A stretch of 64,000 nt of DNA. Source: Amycolatopsis umgeniensis. GTDB lineage: Bacteria; Actinomycetota; Actinomycetes; Mycobacteriales; Pseudonocardiaceae. A program made the translations under genes and the position numbers. The notes beneath the pieces are model-generated. The model was not told where the DNA came from. It made no database searches and was given only the letters and a program-made list of their open reading frames with translations. The DNA lies in NCBI RefSeq assembly GCF_014205155.1, contig NZ_JACHMX010000001.1, positions 7,378,001-7,442,000 of the forward strand, in the 5' to 3' direction. Position 1 is the first letter of the stretch. Each line of letters starts with the position of its first letter. Positions 32,741 through 39,577 of this stretch are shown here, piece after piece.

Positions 32741-32805
32741 TCAGGTGTCGCGAAAGCCACTTTCGGGACGTCTGATGTCCTGAAAGTGGCTTTCGCGACA
32801 CCTGA
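32741..32805. repeat. Double-palindrome repeat R5, long-spacer variant
   Basis: Arms of 24 bp (32741-32764 and 32782-32805) share tcaggtgtcgcgaaag and its complement perfectly. The middle (gggacgtctgatgtcct) has drifted, so the inner palindromes are imperfect. It lies 12 bp after the HxlR stop. The rest of the 320-bp gap (32730-33049) holds only the hairpins listed separately. Confidence 0.88.
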
Positions 32806-33049: not shown

Positions 33050-34408
33050 TCACCCGGCGGGAACGCGAGCCCAGGGCATCTCCTCCTGTGCGGGTACGGC
33101 CGCGGTCGGGGTGTCGGACAGGAAGTCCCGCTCGAACGGGGCGAGGATGTCCTCCCCGATCGGCGCCGGCTCGCCTGAGGCACCCGAAGCGGCGGAAGCC
33201 GCGAACGACGGTTCCGCGGGAGCGGGCGTGGGGAACACCGGCTCGGGCACCGGCAGCCGCCGGTCGAGTTCGGCGGTCCAGTGGATCATCGCCTTCGGCC
33301 GGTCCCAGCCCGCCGCGCCGATGAGCCTGCCGTCGCGGACGAAACCGGTGACCCCGTCGGAAAGTTCGATCGTGTCCTTGCCCAGCGACGGCATCCCGAC
33401 GGTCTGCAGCCGCGCGTCGTACAGCGAAGACCAGGCACGGGGGAGCGGCGTGTACGGCCGCGCGTTGCCCCGGCCCAGCATCAGGCTTTCCGCCGCCGCG
33501 CGCCCGGATTCGACGCCGTTCATCCAGTGCTCGACCCGGCGCGGGGTCTCGTCGATCCGCAGGTTCGGCCATTTCGCGACGTCGCCGGCGACCACGACGT
33601 CCTCCGCCCCGACGGCGAACAGGGTCGATTCGCACAGGACGCCGTCGTCGATGGTCAGCTCCGAGCCGCGCAGCCAGTCCACGGCGGGCACGCTGCCGAT
33701 CGAGAGCACCACGCAGCTGGCCACGAGGAACTGGTTGTTGGTCAGGTGCAGCCCGACCGTTTCCTTGGTGCTGATCCAGTTCCGCACCTCGGTGTTCATC
33801 GCCAGCTTGGCGCGGTGGTGCTGGTGTTCCTTGGTGAGCGCCGACGCGATCCGCTCCCCGAAGCGGTGCAGAGGCGCTTTCGCGTGGCCGATGAGCGTGA
33901 CGTCGCGGCCCATGTACCGCATCGACGCGGCGAACTCGTTCCCGATCAGGCCGCTGCCGATCACCACGACGGATTTGTTGCTGTTCCCCAAAGCCCGCCG
34001 GACGGCGAGTGAATCCTCCACGGTGCGCAGCACACGGACCCGGGGGTCGTGGCGCGGCGAGCCGGGCAGATGCCGGGGGTAGACGCCGGTGGCGACGATC
34101 AGTCCGTCGTACCAAAGGGATTCCCCGCCCGGCAGGTGCACCGTGCGTTCCTTGGTGTCGAGCCAGGTCGCGCGGGTGCCGAGCCGCCAGTGGACGTCCA
34201 GGTCGAGGTACGGCTCCAGGCTCGCGGCCACCGGTTTCACGCCGCCGGTGACGAGTTCCTTCGACACCATCGGCCGGTGGTACGGCTTGCGCGGCTCGTC
34301 GCCGACCAGCACGATCTCGCCGTCGAAACCGAGTTCCCGCAGGCGTTCCGCGGAGCGGAGCCCGGCGACGCCCGCACCGACGATGACGATCCGATCTCCG
34401 TCACTCAT
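33050..34408 (-). CDS. FAD/NAD(P)-dependent ferredoxin reductase-like protein with Pro/Ala-rich tail
   Basis: A 452-residue pyridine-nucleotide-disulphide-type reductase: FAD motif IVIVGAGVAGLRSAERLRELG, NAD motif VVVIGSGLIGNEFAASMRY, and the second FAD motif VVVAGDVAKWPN. After the reductase core (~1-380) comes an ~75-residue Pro/Ala/Glu-rich tail that plain ferredoxin reductases lack. It is translated with the 3Fe-4S-type ferredoxin gene just upstream (8-bp overlap), so it probably reduces that ferredoxin. It is the last gene of a five-gene minus-strand operon. Confidence 0.85.
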   Translation of the reverse strand: MSDGDRIVIVGAGVAGLRSAERLRELGFDGEIVLVGDEPRKPYHRPMVSKELVTGGVKPVAASLEPYLDLDVHWRLGTRATWLDTKERTVHLPGGESLWYDGLIVATGVYPRHLPGSPRHDPRVRVLRTVEDSLAVRRALGNSNKSVVVIGSGLIGNEFAASMRYMGRDVTLIGHAKAPLHRFGERIASALTKEHQHHRAKLAMNTEVRNWISTKETVGLHLTNNQFLVASCVVLSIGSVPAVDWLRGSELTIDDGVLCESTLFAVGAEDVVVAGDVAKWPNLRIDETPRRVEHWMNGVESGRAAAESLMLGRGNARPYTPLPRAWSSLYDARLQTVGMPSLGKDTIELSDGVTGFVRDGRLIGAAGWDRPKAMIHWTAELDRRLPVPEPVFPTPAPAEPSFAASAASGASGEPAPIGEDILAPFERDFLSDTPTAAVPAQEEMPWARVPAG

Positions 34409-34637
34409 CGTCGTACGCTCCTTCTCCCTTGACTCTGATGGCTTGTTTCGGACAGAGCCTGGCGGCGGAAATGGCCTGGTCCAGACCGTCCCGGTCGACC
34501 ATCCGGCGGATGCGGAGCTTGCCGTCCGGCCCGATCTTGAACGTCGCGGGCGCTTCCATCTCGCAGAAGCCGAAGATCTCGCACCGCTCGTTGTCGACGC
34601 TGACGCGAGTGCCGCGCCGTACGCTTCCGAAGATCAT
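34401..34637 (-). CDS. Single-cluster ferredoxin ([3Fe-4S]/[4Fe-4S] type)
   Basis: A 78-residue ferredoxin with C-x5-C (NERCEIFGFCEMEAP) and distal C-P (ARLCPKQAI). The second position of the usual 4Fe motif is not Cys, which favours [3Fe-4S] as in P450 or membrane-oxidase partners. GGAGGA lies 8 bp before ATG 34637. It should link the FAD reductase with the membrane protein encoded upstream. Confidence 0.85.
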   Translation of the reverse strand: MIFGSVRRGTRVSVDNERCEIFGFCEMEAPATFKIGPDGKLRIRRMVDRDGLDQAISAARLCPKQAIRVKGEGAYDDE

Positions 34638-34669
34638 TTTTTCGTTCCTCCAAGTCGTTTCGCGGCTCG

Positions 34670-35275
34670 TCAGACCAGTTCCTCGACCAGGCCCAGCCGT
34701 TCGAGGTACCGGGTGGGCGTGAACCGCAGCGCGGTCAGCAGCACCGCGGGGACCAGCAGGGTGATCCCGCCGAACCACAGGAGGCCGAGATGCCCGTTGG
34801 CCATGGCGCCGAAGAACGCGTGCAGCGCCGTGATCGCGACCGCCGGATAGGCGAGCCGGTGGATCCACAGGAACCGCCGGTAGGAACTGAACCGGCTGAT
34901 CCCGCCGGTCAGCGCGACGGCGATCATCACCTCGAGCCCGACGACGCCGAGTTCGTGCCGCGCCAGCGTGCCCGGCAGGAGCGGGATCGAGATCTGCGCG
35001 AGGGTGAAACCGTCGGGCAGGAACAGGAACGACATCGCGTGCACGACGCCGAACGACAGCGTCAGGATGCCGAGCACCATATGTGAGTTGCGCAGTGCCT
35101 TCCGCCCGGTCAGCGACTTGATCCAGCCGGTCGCGGTGAACACGCCCCAGCACAGGGTGAGGCACATGAAGCCGTACGAGATCCGGGCGGAGGTCTGCGC
35201 CATGCCCTTGATGCCGGGGTCGGTGTCGGTTTTCTGGGTCAGGACGATCACCACCTCGGACCACTGGTCATACAT
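34670..35275 (-). CDS. Ferric-reductase-like transmembrane protein
   Basis: A 201-residue membrane protein with about five helices. Paired histidines fall in helices typical of the ferric-reductase-like/YedZ domain: NSHMVLGILTLSFGVVHAMSF and FLWIHRLAYPAVAITALHAFFG, a pattern that binds two b-type hemes. ATG 35275 was chosen because AGGAGA sits 6 bp upstream; it overlaps the DUF4142 stop. Electrons from the cytosolic ferredoxin could cross the membrane here to the two exported partners encoded upstream. Confidence 0.82.
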   Translation of the reverse strand: MYDQWSEVVIVLTQKTDTDPGIKGMAQTSARISYGFMCLTLCWGVFTATGWIKSLTGRKALRNSHMVLGILTLSFGVVHAMSFLFLPDGFTLAQISIPLLPGTLARHELGVVGLEVMIAVALTGGISRFSSYRRFLWIHRLAYPAVAITALHAFFGAMANGHLGLLWFGGITLLVPAVLLTALRFTPTRYLERLGLVEELV

Positions 35276-36038
35276 TGATCTCTCCTGGGGCACTGGGAAC
35301 CAGTTCCGGTTCGGCGGCGGCCGCGCGTTTGCGGGTCCGGGTGTTCTTGCTGCGCAGGGTCCGGATGGCGAAGAACAGCCCGCCGCCGAGCACCACCGCG
35401 AGCAGCAGGCCGAGGGCGAAGTCGCCGAAACCGACGTCCATCGCCGAGTTGGCCGAATTCGACTGCGGCACGGGCGCTTCCGGCATCAGCGACTGATCGA
35501 CGACGCCGGTGCTCTCCAGCAGGGTCATATGCCGCAGCACCGCCTGGTTGGCCGTGGTGGCGTAGTCGCGGACGACGTCGTTGCGGGTACCCGCCCTGAC
35601 CTGGGCGATGATGGGGAACAGCACACCGTGGGCGTACCGGAGCCGGTTGGCGAAGATCCGGTCGAACTCGGTGTCGTCACGGGCGGCCTTCATCTCGCCG
35701 AGCCACGCGGACTGCTGATCCGACGGTTCGGTCGGCAGGGTGATGCCGAACCGGTCGGCGATGCCGTGCGTCGCGGTGTCGAGCCTGCCGTGGTCGATCA
35801 TCAGCGTCCGGCCGACTTCGCGGGTCCGCTTGCTCTTCCCGCGTTCCTGCGCCCACATCCCGGCGGGCATTTCCCACAACCCGGCCAATTTGACGTTGAC
35901 GATCAGGTTCTTGTCCGCCGGGGAGAGTTCTTGGGCGCGCGCGTCGTCGGCGGGGCCGAGCAGCGTCACCGCGGCCATCGTCAGCAGGACGACCAGGAGG
36001 CGGGAGAACGCGCCGGGGGTGTCAGATGCCGAGGTCAT
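35268..36038 (-). CDS. Exported DUF4142-type protein with C-terminal membrane anchor
   Basis: A 256-residue protein: signal peptide (~1-36, ending ARA), a helical DUF4142-like domain (~38-185; KNLIVNVKLAGLWEMPAG, HGRLDTATHGIADRF, ANRLRYAHGVLFPIIAQVR, LRHMTLLESTG) with conserved His residues, then one transmembrane helix (~205-228) and a basic cytosolic tail. The function of the family is unknown; it is ferritin-like in helix pattern. It overlaps the lipoprotein stop by 17 bp and the membrane reductase start by 8 bp. Confidence 0.75.
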   Translation of the reverse strand: MTSASDTPGAFSRLLVVLLTMAAVTLLGPADDARAQELSPADKNLIVNVKLAGLWEMPAGMWAQERGKSKRTREVGRTLMIDHGRLDTATHGIADRFGITLPTEPSDQQSAWLGEMKAARDDTEFDRIFANRLRYAHGVLFPIIAQVRAGTRNDVVRDYATTANQAVLRHMTLLESTGVVDQSLMPEAPVPQSNSANSAMDVGFGDFALGLLLAVVLGGGLFFAIRTLRSKNTRTRKRAAAAEPELVPSAPGEINV

Positions 36039-36582
36039 CGGCCTGCCAGGTGTCCGCGGTGAGCAGCACTTTCGTCCCGTCGGGCTTGACCGGGAACCAC
36101 GCGTCGTCGACGCCCTGCCCGCCGGTGTTGCCGGGCATCGCGTCCTTCGCGTTGCGATAGAGCGGCCAGCCCGCGAGCGTGATCTGCTCGGTGCCGTCGT
36201 CCCTGGTCACGGCGCCGACCAGCGCGCGATCGATGCCGGTCACCACGAGGTCGCCGTCCGCCTTGGCGGGAATCCAGGTCCGCGAGCAGGTTTCGGCGCA
36301 ATTCGACTTGGGCGGGTTGACCGTGTCCTTGTCGTAGCGGTAGAGCGTGAAGCCTCCTGTGTCGGTGACGATCGGTCCGAGGTCGAACAGGATCGCCGCG
36401 GTGACACCGGGCGCCACTTCGGCGGCGGGGTCGGGCATTCCGGGGATTTCCGCCGTACCGGCGGCGGGGGCCGCGCCCGGAGTGCCGTTCGGTCCCGCGG
36501 TACCGGTGGTGCAGGCCGTGGTCGACGCGACCACGGCCAAGATGAGGGTCAGAGGTATGACCGAGCGTGACACGGGGTTCAC
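36022..36582 (-). CDS. Secreted-repeat (COG4315-like) lipoprotein
   Basis: A 186-residue protein. A signal segment SVIPLTLILAVVASTTAC ends at a likely lipidated Cys, followed by a Gly/Pro/Ala linker and two secreted-repeat motifs (GFTLYRYDKDTVNPPKSNC with CAETCSRTWIPA; LAGWPLYRNAKDAMPG). GTG 36582 has AGGAGG six bases upstream; earlier in-frame starts lack a signal. It is the first gene of the redox operon, diverging from an ECF sigma gene. Such lipoproteins are common in actinomycetes without a settled role. Confidence 0.8.
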   Translation of the reverse strand: MNPVSRSVIPLTLILAVVASTTACTTGTAGPNGTPGAAPAAGTAEIPGMPDPAAEVAPGVTAAILFDLGPIVTDTGGFTLYRYDKDTVNPPKSNCAETCSRTWIPAKADGDLVVTGIDRALVGAVTRDDGTEQITLAGWPLYRNAKDAMPGNTGGQGVDDAWFPVKPDGTKVLLTADTWQADDLGI

Positions 36583-36655: not shown

Positions 36656-36680
36656 ACTGTGGACAGTCAAGATCCACAGT
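36656..36680. promoter_or_regulatory. Inverted repeat in the lipoprotein/sigma divergent region
   Basis: actgtgga and tccacagt (8 bp) flank nine bases. The whole 249-bp region 36583-36831 must hold both divergent promoters. I cannot identify the ECF promoter with confidence. Confidence 0.45.
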
Positions 36681-36831
36681 GGATTCGGCGGTGCGGGGGA
36701 CAGCGCCGGGTCGGGGTCTTCGGTAGGGGATACGGTCACGAGTCGAGAACGGTTCAAAAAACTTTCACATGCGGCGAGAACCGCGCCGGAACGGTTTTGG
36801 TACTGGACTTATCGCCCCTGATCCCACAAAG

Positions 36832-37392
36832 ATGTGCCGCGTGGGACGCCACTCTCGGATACTGCAGCCAATAGTCGATCATGAACCCGCGTCGAACGGG
36901 CATGACGACCTCATCAGGGCGTTGTACCAGGAGTTCGGATCGAGTCTGATGGCGTTCGTGCTGAAGTTGACCGGCCACGATCGCCAGTGGGCCGAGGACG
37001 TGGTCCAGGAGACGCTCATCAAGGCGTGGCGCAACGCCGGCAAGCTCGACCGGCAGCCGGAAATGCTGCGTGCCTGGCTCTTCACCGTGGCCAGGCGCAT
37101 CGTCATCGACGGCTGGCGGAGCCGGAGCGCCCGCCCTCAAGAGGTGGAGGAACTCGAGTCGGATTCGATCGGAGTGCCGGACGAATCGGAGAAAACGCTC
37201 GCGGCCATGATCGTTTACGAGGCCCTGCGCAATCTTTCCCCGGAGCAACGTGAAGCCGTCCAGCAGACCTACCTGCGTGACCGCACCGTGAACGAGGTCG
37301 CGGCGACGCTCGGGGTTCCGCCGGGTACGGTGAAATCGCGGATCCACCACGCTGTGCGCGCGCTGCGCAGGGCGTTGCAGGAGCGGGGGTGA
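36832..37392 (+). CDS. ECF sigma factor (SigK/SigL-like)
   Basis: A 186-residue ECF sigma factor. Sigma2 has ALYQEFGSSLMAFVLKLTG, AEDVVQETLIKAWRN and LRAWLFTVARRIVIDGWRSR; sigma4 has LSPEQREAVQQTYLRDRTVNEVAATLGVPPGTVKSRIHHAVRALR. The start is uncertain: ATG 36832 is plausible, an earlier in-frame start is 36769. GTGA overlap with a zf-HC2 anti-sigma gene is the SigL-RslA style of arrangement. Likely targets are itself, the exported DUF1996 gene downstream and perhaps the divergent redox operon. Confidence 0.88.
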   Translation: MCRVGRHSRILQPIVDHEPASNGHDDLIRALYQEFGSSLMAFVLKLTGHDRQWAEDVVQETLIKAWRNAGKLDRQPEMLRAWLFTVARRIVIDGWRSRSARPQEVEELESDSIGVPDESEKTLAAMIVYEALRNLSPEQREAVQQTYLRDRTVNEVAATLGVPPGTVKSRIHHAVRALRRALQERG

Positions 37393-38135
37393 GCGAGGTG
37401 TCCGGAGCGCCGCACACGGATATCGCCGCCTACGTCCTCGGCGTTCTCGGCGAGGAGGATCACGCCGGGTTCGAGGCGCATCTGCTGGAGTGCCCCGAGT
37501 GCCAGGTCGAGCTCGTGGAGATGTACCACCTGCCCGACATCCTGGACATGGTCAAGAAGAGCTGGCCGGATCCGCCCGTGAAGGGCCCCGGGCCGCGAGT
37601 GCTGCGGATGCTGCTCGCGGACGCCGCCAAGGCGGGCCGCCGTCGCAAGGTCATCCGGCTCGCGACGGCCGCCGCCGTACTCGTGCTCGTCGTCGGCGGA
37701 CCGCTCGTCGTTCTTTCGCTCACCGACCGTGAACCGGTCATCACGCAGGCCGCGCCCACCGTCGTCACGTCGGTGGTGCCGTTGTCGCCGACCGGGAAGC
37801 CCGGCCCGGACGGCGGCGCCGCCCCGTTCGGCTGGTCCGAGGCGGGCAACGCGGTCGCCGCCGAGGTCACGGTCCAGGAGAAGGAATGGGGCAGCGCGGT
37901 CGAGCTCGAACTGCGCGGCCTCGTCGGCCCGATGACCTGCCAGCTGTTCGCCTACTCCCACGGCGGAGAGGCCTACGTCGTCAACAACTGGAGCGTGCCG
38001 TCCAAGGGCTACGGCGTCCCCGGTTCCCCGGACCCCCTCGTCATCACCGGTTCGACGGCGCTGCAGAAGGCCGACATCGAACGCTTCGAGGTCCACAAAC
38101 AGGACGGCACCGTGCTGGCCATCGTGCGCCGGTAA
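37389..38135 (+). CDS. Anti-sigma factor with zinc-binding (zf-HC2) domain
   Basis: A 248-residue single-pass membrane protein. The N-terminal anti-sigma domain has H-x3-C-x2-C (AHLLECPECQVEL, ~30-42); a transmembrane helix lies near 93-113 (LATAAAVLVLVVGGPLVVLSL); the rest is extracytoplasmic and resembles RskA/RslA-type sensor domains (ELRGLVGPMTCQLFAYSHGG). It should bind the upstream sigma factor and release it on a redox or envelope signal through the Cys/zinc site. Confidence 0.88.
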   Translation: MSEVSGAPHTDIAAYVLGVLGEEDHAGFEAHLLECPECQVELVEMYHLPDILDMVKKSWPDPPVKGPGPRVLRMLLADAAKAGRRRKVIRLATAAAVLVLVVGGPLVVLSLTDREPVITQAAPTVVTSVVPLSPTGKPGPDGGAAPFGWSEAGNAVAAEVTVQEKEWGSAVELELRGLVGPMTCQLFAYSHGGEAYVVNNWSVPSKGYGVPGSPDPLVITGSTALQKADIERFEVHKQDGTVLAIVRR

Positions 38136-38341
38136 GTTTATAACGGAAATATAACGGCGGGATCGCGTTTTGAACCGACCCCCGGCCGGAACCGTATCTC
38201 TCAGTAGCCGGATCTCCCTCGGCGGGCGAACAGCAGGTTCGCCGCGAATTCGGTAATCGGCGTATTCGACAAATGCGTGACTCATGACTGGGTGCGAGTG
38301 GTTTTCCCGCGTGCCCGGAAACGAATGAGGTGAGCAAGTCA

Positions 38342-39577
38342 ATGGCACGAAATCAAGGGCGCCATCGTATCGCCCGCAGGACCAAGATCGCGACCGCGTT
38401 GCTGGGCCTGTCGATCGCGGTCGGCGGACTGGTGGTGTCCACCACGACCGGCGACTCCGACAAGGCCTCCGCGGACGAGGTGGACAAGTCGCAGTTCGTG
38501 GACATCACCAAGGTCCAGCCGAACGTCGACAAGCCGGAGCAGGGTGAGAACGCGTCCACGGGCTCGTTCACCGTCGACTGCGGCAAGAACGAGAACGGGC
38601 ATTTCAATCCCGACAACTTCATCGCGCAGCCGGGTATCCGCAACGGTGCCCAGCATCTGCACGACTACGTCGGAAACCTTTCGACGAACGCGGATTCGAA
38701 CAACAACAGCCTGCTGGGCGCCGGTACCACCTGTCGCAACGGTGACGAATCGGCGTACTTCTGGCCGGTCGTGCGGATCGACACCGAGGAGGAAGGCGAA
38801 CAGCAGCAGGGCGACCAGAACCAGAACCAGGGCAAGCAGCAAGGTGACCGGCAGCAGGATCAGGGTGGCCGGGACCAGCAGCGCCAGGGCGGCCGCGATC
38901 AGAACGGCGACCGGCAGGGCCGTGACCGGAATCAGGACGACGAAAACCGGAACGGCAACCAGGGCAACCAGAACGACAACCAGAACGACGACCAGGATCA
39001 GGCCGAACTGGACGAGCCGAACGCGGACAACGAACTCGCCGGCAACGACGGCGAGATCCAGCGTCCCGCCGTCGTCGACATCACCTTCAAGGGCAACGCC
39101 CGGGAGAAGGTGAAGGAGATGCCGAAGTTCCTCCGTATCCTTTACGGTGACGCGAAGGTCACCGCGAACGGGCCCGCCAACGCGCGGGAAAGCTGGACCT
39201 GTACCGGCTTCGAGGATCGCGTCATCAAGCAGTACCCGATCTGTCCTCAGGGCAGTGACGTCAAGCGGGTGCACACGTTCCCGAGCTGTCTCGACGGCAA
39301 CAACATCGACAGCGAGAACCATCGGGACCACATCAAGTACCCCAACGAGAACGGCGAGTGCGCGAACGGCCTGACCGCCGTCCCGGAGCTCACCATCTCG
39401 CTGACCTACAAGATCCCACGGCAGATCCAGGTCAACGGGCAGTACAAAGTGGACTCGTTCCCCGAGGAGGATCACAACCCCTTCTCCGACCACGACGATT
39501 TCGCGAACGTGATGCCGAATCAGATCATGGATCGCCTCGTCGAGTGCGTCAACGAGGGCCGTGAGTGCCGCGAATGA
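38342..39577 (+). CDS. Exported DUF1996-domain protein with Q/N/D/R-rich insert
   Basis: A 411-residue secreted protein. The signal segment is TALLGLSIAVGGLVVSTTTG (~18-37). The DUF1996 fold starts at FNPDNFIAQPGIRNGAQHLHDY and SAYFWPVVRID, is broken by ~92 residues (148-239) of Gln/Asn/Asp/Arg/Gly repeats, and resumes with PAVVDITFKGNA, CPQGSDVKRVHTFPSCLDG and HRDHIKYPNENGECANG. Six conserved Cys remain in the domain. ATG 38342 follows GAGGTGAG; a GTG at 38330 is possible. Its place after the sigma/anti-sigma pair suggests control by that sigma. Function unknown. Confidence 0.82.
   Translation: MARNQGRHRIARRTKIATALLGLSIAVGGLVVSTTTGDSDKASADEVDKSQFVDITKVQPNVDKPEQGENASTGSFTVDCGKNENGHFNPDNFIAQPGIRNGAQHLHDYVGNLSTNADSNNNSLLGAGTTCRNGDESAYFWPVVRIDTEEEGEQQQGDQNQNQGKQQGDRQQDQGGRDQQRQGGRDQNGDRQGRDRNQDDENRNGNQGNQNDNQNDDQDQAELDEPNADNELAGNDGEIQRPAVVDITFKGNAREKVKEMPKFLRILYGDAKVTANGPANARESWTCTGFEDRVIKQYPICPQGSDVKRVHTFPSCLDGNNIDSENHRDHIKYPNENGECANGLTAVPELTISLTYKIPRQIQVNGQYKVDSFPEEDHNPFSDHDDFANVMPNQIMDRLVECVNEGRECRE

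Follow-up and report, generated by a model that had tools for sequence, protein, structure and literature searches.

A putative ferredoxin-fed outward electron conduit encoded beside a SigL-like sigma factor in Amycolatopsis umgeniensis

The genome of Amycolatopsis umgeniensis (9.23 Mb, a single contig) was analysed in a window of 64,000 nucleotides, positions 7378001 to 7442000 of the genome, which carries a compact operon of five genes between window positions 33050 and 36582. The operon quite probably encodes an outward electron conduit under the control of a SigL-like sigma factor. It is also reasonably likely to be an envelope-stress operon in which conduit and sigma control act together, with an acceptor that could be either a metal ion or an envelope protein. 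The case is built on gene content, residue motifs, a natural gene fusion, conservation and a shared promoter. The sigma/anti-sigma control is the best clue to the purpose of the operon. This divergent gene pair, the promoter, a DUF1996 gene nearby and another copy of the cassette elsewhere in the genome had all gone without mention in an initial annotation made from the DNA letters.

All five genes lie on the minus strand. From 5′ to 3′ they encode a PF03640 secreted-repeat lipoprotein (36022–36582; E 4.9e-27), a DUF4142 protein with a signal/anchor segment and a C-terminal membrane helix (35268–36038; PF13628, E 2.1e-12), an MsrQ-like membrane protein with a ferric reductase domain (FRD) (34670–35275; PF01794, E 3.6e-8), a single-cluster ferredoxin (34401–34637; PF13459, E 1.6e-9) and a flavin adenine dinucleotide (FAD) ferredoxin reductase (33050–34408; PF07992, E 9.2e-46). 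The lipoprotein and DUF4142 genes overlap by 17 bases and the DUF4142 and membrane protein genes by 8, a gap of 32 bases separates the membrane protein gene from the ferredoxin gene, and the latter overlaps the reductase gene by 8 bases. Open reading frame calls and Pfam matches bear out the initial annotation, which had named these five genes as overlapping or tightly spaced. The lipoprotein gene starts with GTG after AGGAGG; translation could instead begin at 36657, although that start would precede AGGAGG.

The membrane protein contains two His pairs, H65-X13-H79 and H139-X12-H152, which are invariant among 24 aligned homologues. Both spacings are kept in all 81 loci of the comparison set described below, which bears out the paired His first noticed in the single sequence. 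PF01794 (33.9 bits against a cut-off of 28) is the sole domain matched on the chain, and a profile comparison gave a weak match to SpNOX (8qt6; E 7.3e-4). Crude hydropathy analysis, set against the six membrane helices expected of the superfamily, returned overlapping peaks. The ferredoxin carries C-X5-C-X36-C-P, and Cys-X5-Cys...Cys-Pro is the pattern of [3Fe-4S] ferredoxins. The form Cys-X5-Cys-X35–37-Cys-Pro recurs in 81 of 81 loci, in agreement with the cluster type originally proposed, and among solved structures the closest is the ferredoxin portion of a CYP51 fusion (6mcw). The reductase belongs to the putidaredoxin reductase/BphA4 type, matching TodA, BphA4 and putidaredoxin reductase in the Protein Data Bank. 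Its Reductase_C match (PF14759) scores 17.2 bits against a cut-off of 25, and that of its paralogue 31.3. The additional C-terminal Pro/Ala tail that had been singled out is present, with a length that differs from locus to locus. Unusual reductase arrangements were also observed. In Kibdelosporangium and one Actinosynnema record (L051, L052, L053 and L087) the protein reaches 777–816 amino acids, about twice the usual catalytic length. The Kutzneria loci L060, L067 and L071 have an additional reductase gene immediately upstream of the one for the membrane protein and are without sigma factor, lipoprotein or DUF4142 genes.

The ferredoxin is fused to the membrane protein in 31 of the 81 loci, and in the remaining 50 the two genes are adjacent. 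Because the two are naturally fused, the ferredoxin is the likely direct donor to the membrane protein. A path from NAD(P)H through the FAD reductase and the ferredoxin to a bis-haem membrane protein and the outside fits the genes and is well supported by sequence; its haem and cluster content, its outward direction and its acceptor are putative. Ferredoxin input is not unique to the operon within the FRD superfamily, since one of eight distant FRD loci that were fetched (L136) encodes a PF13459 ferredoxin beside its membrane protein and, some 3 kb off, ApbE. Another of the eight (L142) has a NuoF-like protein beside the membrane protein, and the particular partner set of the operon was encountered nowhere else.

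A profile built from 24 membrane proteins yielded 79 loci out of the best 80 of 165 confirmed matches. Together with the window and a second cassette in the same genome (L009) these make up the 81 loci compared, which were annotated with profiles built from the loci themselves; they are not independent, with 37 of the 79 coming from Amycolatopsis, and some contigs end nearby. All five operon families occur with an adjacent extracytoplasmic function (ECF) sigma factor and a zinc anti-sigma factor in 62 of the 81 loci. Going by record titles, these come from nine genera, of which one is given as Nocardia, and the cluster is thus conserved beyond close relatives. Counted singly, the reductase is found in 79 loci, DUF4142 in 71, the sigma factor in 70, the anti-sigma factor in 68 and the lipoprotein in 64. 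The whole set of 81 loci, named in the same way, spans sixteen genera and one Acidimicrobiales bin (L084), which may be a binning error. In L009 the arrangement is different: sigma and anti-sigma genes diverge from DUF4142, and the cassette further encodes a fusion of membrane protein and ferredoxin, a reductase and a PF03640 protein.

In a tree of the membrane proteins, the window sequence is nearest to those of Amycolatopsis regifaucium and A. orientalis. The fused and separate ferredoxin forms require two changes on this tree, in which bootstrap values are not fully settled. The gene association looks older than the split between these forms, because both carry the sigma pair, the lipoprotein and DUF4142. 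Profile matches were found in 88 of 200 Pseudonocardiaceae genomes, 19 of them only below 63 bits, and dropping those leaves 69 of 200 genomes and 16 of 46 genera, with G579 in two pieces. A phylum-wide sample gave matches in 22 of 396 genomes, all weak (23–51 bits) except that of A. umgeniensis itself. These counts indicate a tight family that is common across Pseudonocardiaceae and scarcely found outside them.

Divergent from the operon is the sigma/anti-sigma pair (36832–38135, plus strand). The ECF sigma factor gene (36832–37392; Sigma70_r2/r4) was given a chosen start codon within an open frame that begins at 36769, and it is followed by the gene of a membrane zinc anti-sigma factor (37389–38135; zf-HC2). 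The best solved match of the sigma factor is SigL of Mycobacterium tuberculosis (6dv9) at 117 bits, with the next at 60, and that of the anti-sigma factor is RslA of the same species (3hug_B) at 31 bits. The sigma factor is called SigL-like because its score against PRK09645, 200.5, falls just under the cut-off of 202. An HX3CX2C zinc motif is present in 67 of 67 anti-sigma factors; the window protein reads H-X3-C-P-E-C, with the same CPEC as RslA, although its two middle residues differ from relative to relative. According to the available portions of two reports, oxidised RslA loses its zinc and holds SigL more weakly (PMC2877774), and full growth of M. tuberculosis at low iron requires sigL (PMC10449499).

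A promoter-like site, GAACC-N16-CGTAT, precedes the operon (36730–36755, minus strand). GAACC-N15/16-CGT occurs on the operon strand in every one of the 69 loci where a divergent sigma gene was in range (N16 in 67, N15 in 2), compared with 6 for the reversed region. In front of GAACC, at a position outside the pattern, 47 of the 48 distinct N16 sites have T, and all 48 have A after CGT. Across the A. umgeniensis genome, GAACC-N16-CGTAY is found 25 times and the reversed pattern 6 times, with sites before the operon, before the DUF1996 gene and flanking the second cassette on either side. The neighbouring sigma factor presumably drives these sites.

Several secreted proteins share this promoter. 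The second site in the window (38172–38197, plus strand) stands before the gene of a secreted DUF1996 protein beyond the sigma pair (38330–39577, plus strand; PF09362, E 1.9e-22), a probable regulon member. DUF1996 is matched in 39 of the 81 loci, with the gene inside the operon in three (L056, L061 and L063). The motif precedes 30 of 41 DUF1996 matches, or 25 of 36 loci after double matches are merged, with 0 for the reversed pattern and 2 for the other strand. Another example is a CopM-like DUF305 lipoprotein, for which CopM is nearest by sequence. In an orthology test within the genus, covering 25 of 60 listed matches, the motif was present before the gene in 13 of 13 relatives with at least 50% identity (eleven of them nearly identical) and in 0 of 12 distant ones. 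It also precedes the gene of another secreted protein in 18 of 18 relatives, with orthology again within the genus. Among other observations, L096 (genome positions 3632229–3632864) encodes a secreted protein unassigned to any family; it too has the promoter motif, and the gene after it by eye resembles M23-type peptidases. At L097 a motif site is followed at +87 by an open frame of 259 amino acids that appears, by eye, cyclodipeptide-synthase-like. The DUF1996 protein of the window contains a long low-complexity insert rich in Gln, Asn, Asp and Arg, at about 38800–39030.

The two outer proteins belong to families with strict residue signatures. The lipoprotein motif S-X-C-X3-C-X3-W is kept in all 64 loci that have the gene; in an alignment of 28 lipoproteins, at least 90% have the lipobox Cys, and the CX3C pair is invariant. 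Against NF040526, the SCO0930 family, the lipoprotein scores 154.9 bits, under the cut-off of 275, and it is classed as a member of PF03640 only. SCO0930 itself is described in the available parts of the open-access literature as secreted and belonging to the SigU regulon, or is listed in expression tables. The DUF4142 protein matches PF13628 at 47.9 bits (cut-off 27), and the best structural matches of its model are CopM/DUF305 four-helix bundles. It is predicted to form a CopM/ferritin-like bundle in which one invariant Glu (E56) and three His that are likewise invariant (H83, H137 and H170) fall one to each helix, a candidate E/H/H/H site that may bind copper or another metal. Variant arrangements of these genes were recorded as well. 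In L032 (6746–8005) and L034 (6785–8005) the lipoprotein and DUF4142 form one reading frame, of 420 and 407 amino acids. Past DUF1996, seven loci (L022, L023, L028, L029, L030, L032 and L035) have a second lipoprotein gene in the same orientation with its own sigma/anti-sigma pair. Elsewhere in the phylum, 9 of 20 PF03640 loci (L223, L224, L225, L226, L227, L231, L232, L234 and L236) adjoin an ECF sigma/zinc anti-sigma pair without electron genes.

In the proposed mechanism, a SigL/RslA-type pair would sense oxidising or metal-linked stress and free the sigma factor, a redox release suggested by analogy with RslA. The freed sigma factor would transcribe the operon from TGAACC-N16-CGTA. Electrons would then pass from NAD(P)H to the FAD ferredoxin reductase, the [3Fe-4S]-type ferredoxin, two b haems and the outer face, with the ferredoxin docked on the membrane protein or, in relatives, fused to it. 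On the outer side, the PF03640 lipoprotein and the anchored CopM-like DUF4142 protein, the latter with its E/H/H/H set, would take up the electrons or deal with what is formed. Candidate acceptors are a metal ion bound by the CopM-like bundle, an envelope protein in oxidised form, and O2; of these a metal ion, Cu2+ or Fe3+, is favoured, though only tentatively. Rather doubtful is the most specific proposal, a new envelope redox class in which a SigL/RslA-type-controlled, ferredoxin-driven transmembrane reductase acts on DUF4142-held Cu2+ or Fe3+ within a regulon of secreted metal-binding proteins.

Several observations weigh against the envelope-stress reading. Nine loci with enough flank have the membrane protein and the ferredoxin and neither DUF4142 nor the lipoprotein (a tenth, L075, was left out as cut by a contig end), and two of these nine, L064 and L068, also lack the reductase. 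Since the membrane protein and ferredoxin are kept there without them, the outer partners are not obligatory. Moreover, all 20 PF03640 loci examined elsewhere in the phylum lack genes for the membrane protein, a ferredoxin or DUF4142. The transmembrane electron flow proposed in the initial annotation is supported as a path from NAD(P)H to the outside, and its assignment of the lipoprotein and DUF4142 protein as dedicated electron partners is not. The CopM likeness is tempered by the ease with which helical bundles match in structure comparison, and Foldseek returned nothing for the DUF4142 protein that reached E 0.001. As for the regulon, the motif is missing before 11 of the 41 DUF1996 matches, and sigma factors other than the neighbouring one may read it. 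Fungal DUF1996 mutants, in the accessible part of PMC4738358, are sensitive to several metals with unchanged sensitivity to Cu2+.

The trio-only loci, with membrane protein, ferredoxin and reductase, lend themselves to other explanations. One is envelope repair, in which the haem protein would feed an extracytoplasmic reductase encoded elsewhere that acts on oxidised Met or disulphides, as MsrQ feeds MsrP. The lipoprotein and DUF4142 would then be co-regulated stress proteins, the lipoprotein CX3C perhaps serving as substrate or relay. The MsrQ-like fold family of the membrane protein, the zinc-type and potentially redox-sensitive anti-sigma factor and the invariant CX3C are consistent with such a role. 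It is nonetheless rather unlikely: none of the nine window genes scanned encodes an MsrP-type molybdopterin reductase (the genome was not searched for MsrP), and no further gene family recurs widely beside the loci, the largest group among those listed being present at 6 of 27 loci, in positions that differ between them.

An unlikelier explanation is that the outer haem, without a protein partner, reduces O2 to superoxide, as in NADPH oxidases (NOX), or reduces free Fe3+ chelates. Besides the trio-only loci, it draws on the weak profile match to SpNOX and on His spacing that agrees with a NOX screen for two His-X12/14-His pairs, as given in the available text of PMC5676040. However, the membrane protein has no fused NOX-type FAD/NADPH domain, and a superoxide source would be odd in a stress regulon with secreted partners. 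It is very improbable that a cytosolic oxygenase or P450 is what the ferredoxin and reductase supply, with the membrane protein as a bystander. P450s and dioxygenases do use proteins of these two types, but the membrane protein and ferredoxin are fused or adjacent at every locus and the reductase accompanies them in nearly all.

No system combining DUF4142, a ferredoxin, a ferric reductase and a lipoprotein, or ECF19, an anti-sigma factor and a ferredoxin, was found in the open-access literature searched, in line with the original remark that no described pathway has this set. The nearest described are MsrQ-like flavinylation clusters. The available portion of PMC8238504 reports 1797 flavinylation clusters, mainly from Actinobacteria, with PF00175 or NuoF-like donors, and its descriptions of the MsrQ-like clusters mention no ferredoxin-fed form. 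Like the operon, these clusters have a PF01794 protein with two predicted haem sites, are mostly actinobacterial and carry NAD(P)H electrons outward, as far as the accessible parts of PMC8238504 and PMC11334425 describe them. Unlike it, they include a flavin mononucleotide (FMN)-binding protein and, in most cases, also ApbE, together with a PF00175 domain or NuoF-like donor (PMC8238504, PMC11334425, same parts), whereas the operon has a ferredoxin with its reductase as donor and PF03640 and DUF4142 proteins outside. Neither FMN_bind nor ApbE was matched among the nine window genes scanned; the genome has a sole FMN_bind match, at position 2344538 and so some 5 Mb from the operon, and for ApbE the search covered those nine genes.

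Other known systems resemble parts of the operon. As in MsrPQ, a small FRD membrane protein would feed the outer side, but the donor is a ferredoxin, whereas MsrQ receives electrons from Fre in the portion of the literature available. NADPH oxidases and SpNOX likewise have two His pairs and a transmembrane haem relay. NOX proteins bear their FAD/NADPH domains on the same chain, whereas the operon protein has only PF01794; in fusions such as the paralogue it is a ferredoxin domain that shares the chain, and the flavoprotein of the operon is of another fold family. SigL and RslA are the nearest solved relatives of the regulatory pair and share the HX3CX2C zinc motif and a −10 element starting with CGT after a GAACC −35 element. 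The fourth −10 base, in contrast, is A in 48 of 48 distinct operon sites and G in the SigL consensus CG-TGN(C/A)AG, as the available part of its source gives it, and the redox operon was not seen with SigL/RslA in M. tuberculosis. CopM/DUF305 proteins are the best structural matches of DUF4142, and a DUF305 lipoprotein shares the promoter, but the DUF4142 protein has its own C-terminal membrane helix and E/H/H/H set.

Elsewhere in the window, positions 32747–32799 hold an inverted repeat with 18-base arms (GAAAGTGGCTTTCGCGAC), 35 bases from start to start. The exact arm GAAAGTGGCTTTCGCGAC occurs 129 times forward and 126 times reverse in the genome, compared with 0 for the reversed control. 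Nearly all of the 100 listed GAAAGTGGCTTTCGCGAC places are paired, marking a dispersed hairpin element.

FRD/MsrQ-like proteins are common in actinobacteria, and their donors and substrates are mostly unknown. The operon offers a fusion that names the likely donor, the ferredoxin, along with a dedicated reductase and a sigma regulon traced by its conserved promoter. For PF03640 and DUF4142, two orphan secreted families with strict residue signatures, function becomes directly testable. The proposed conduit would link SigL/RslA-type sensing to electron export.

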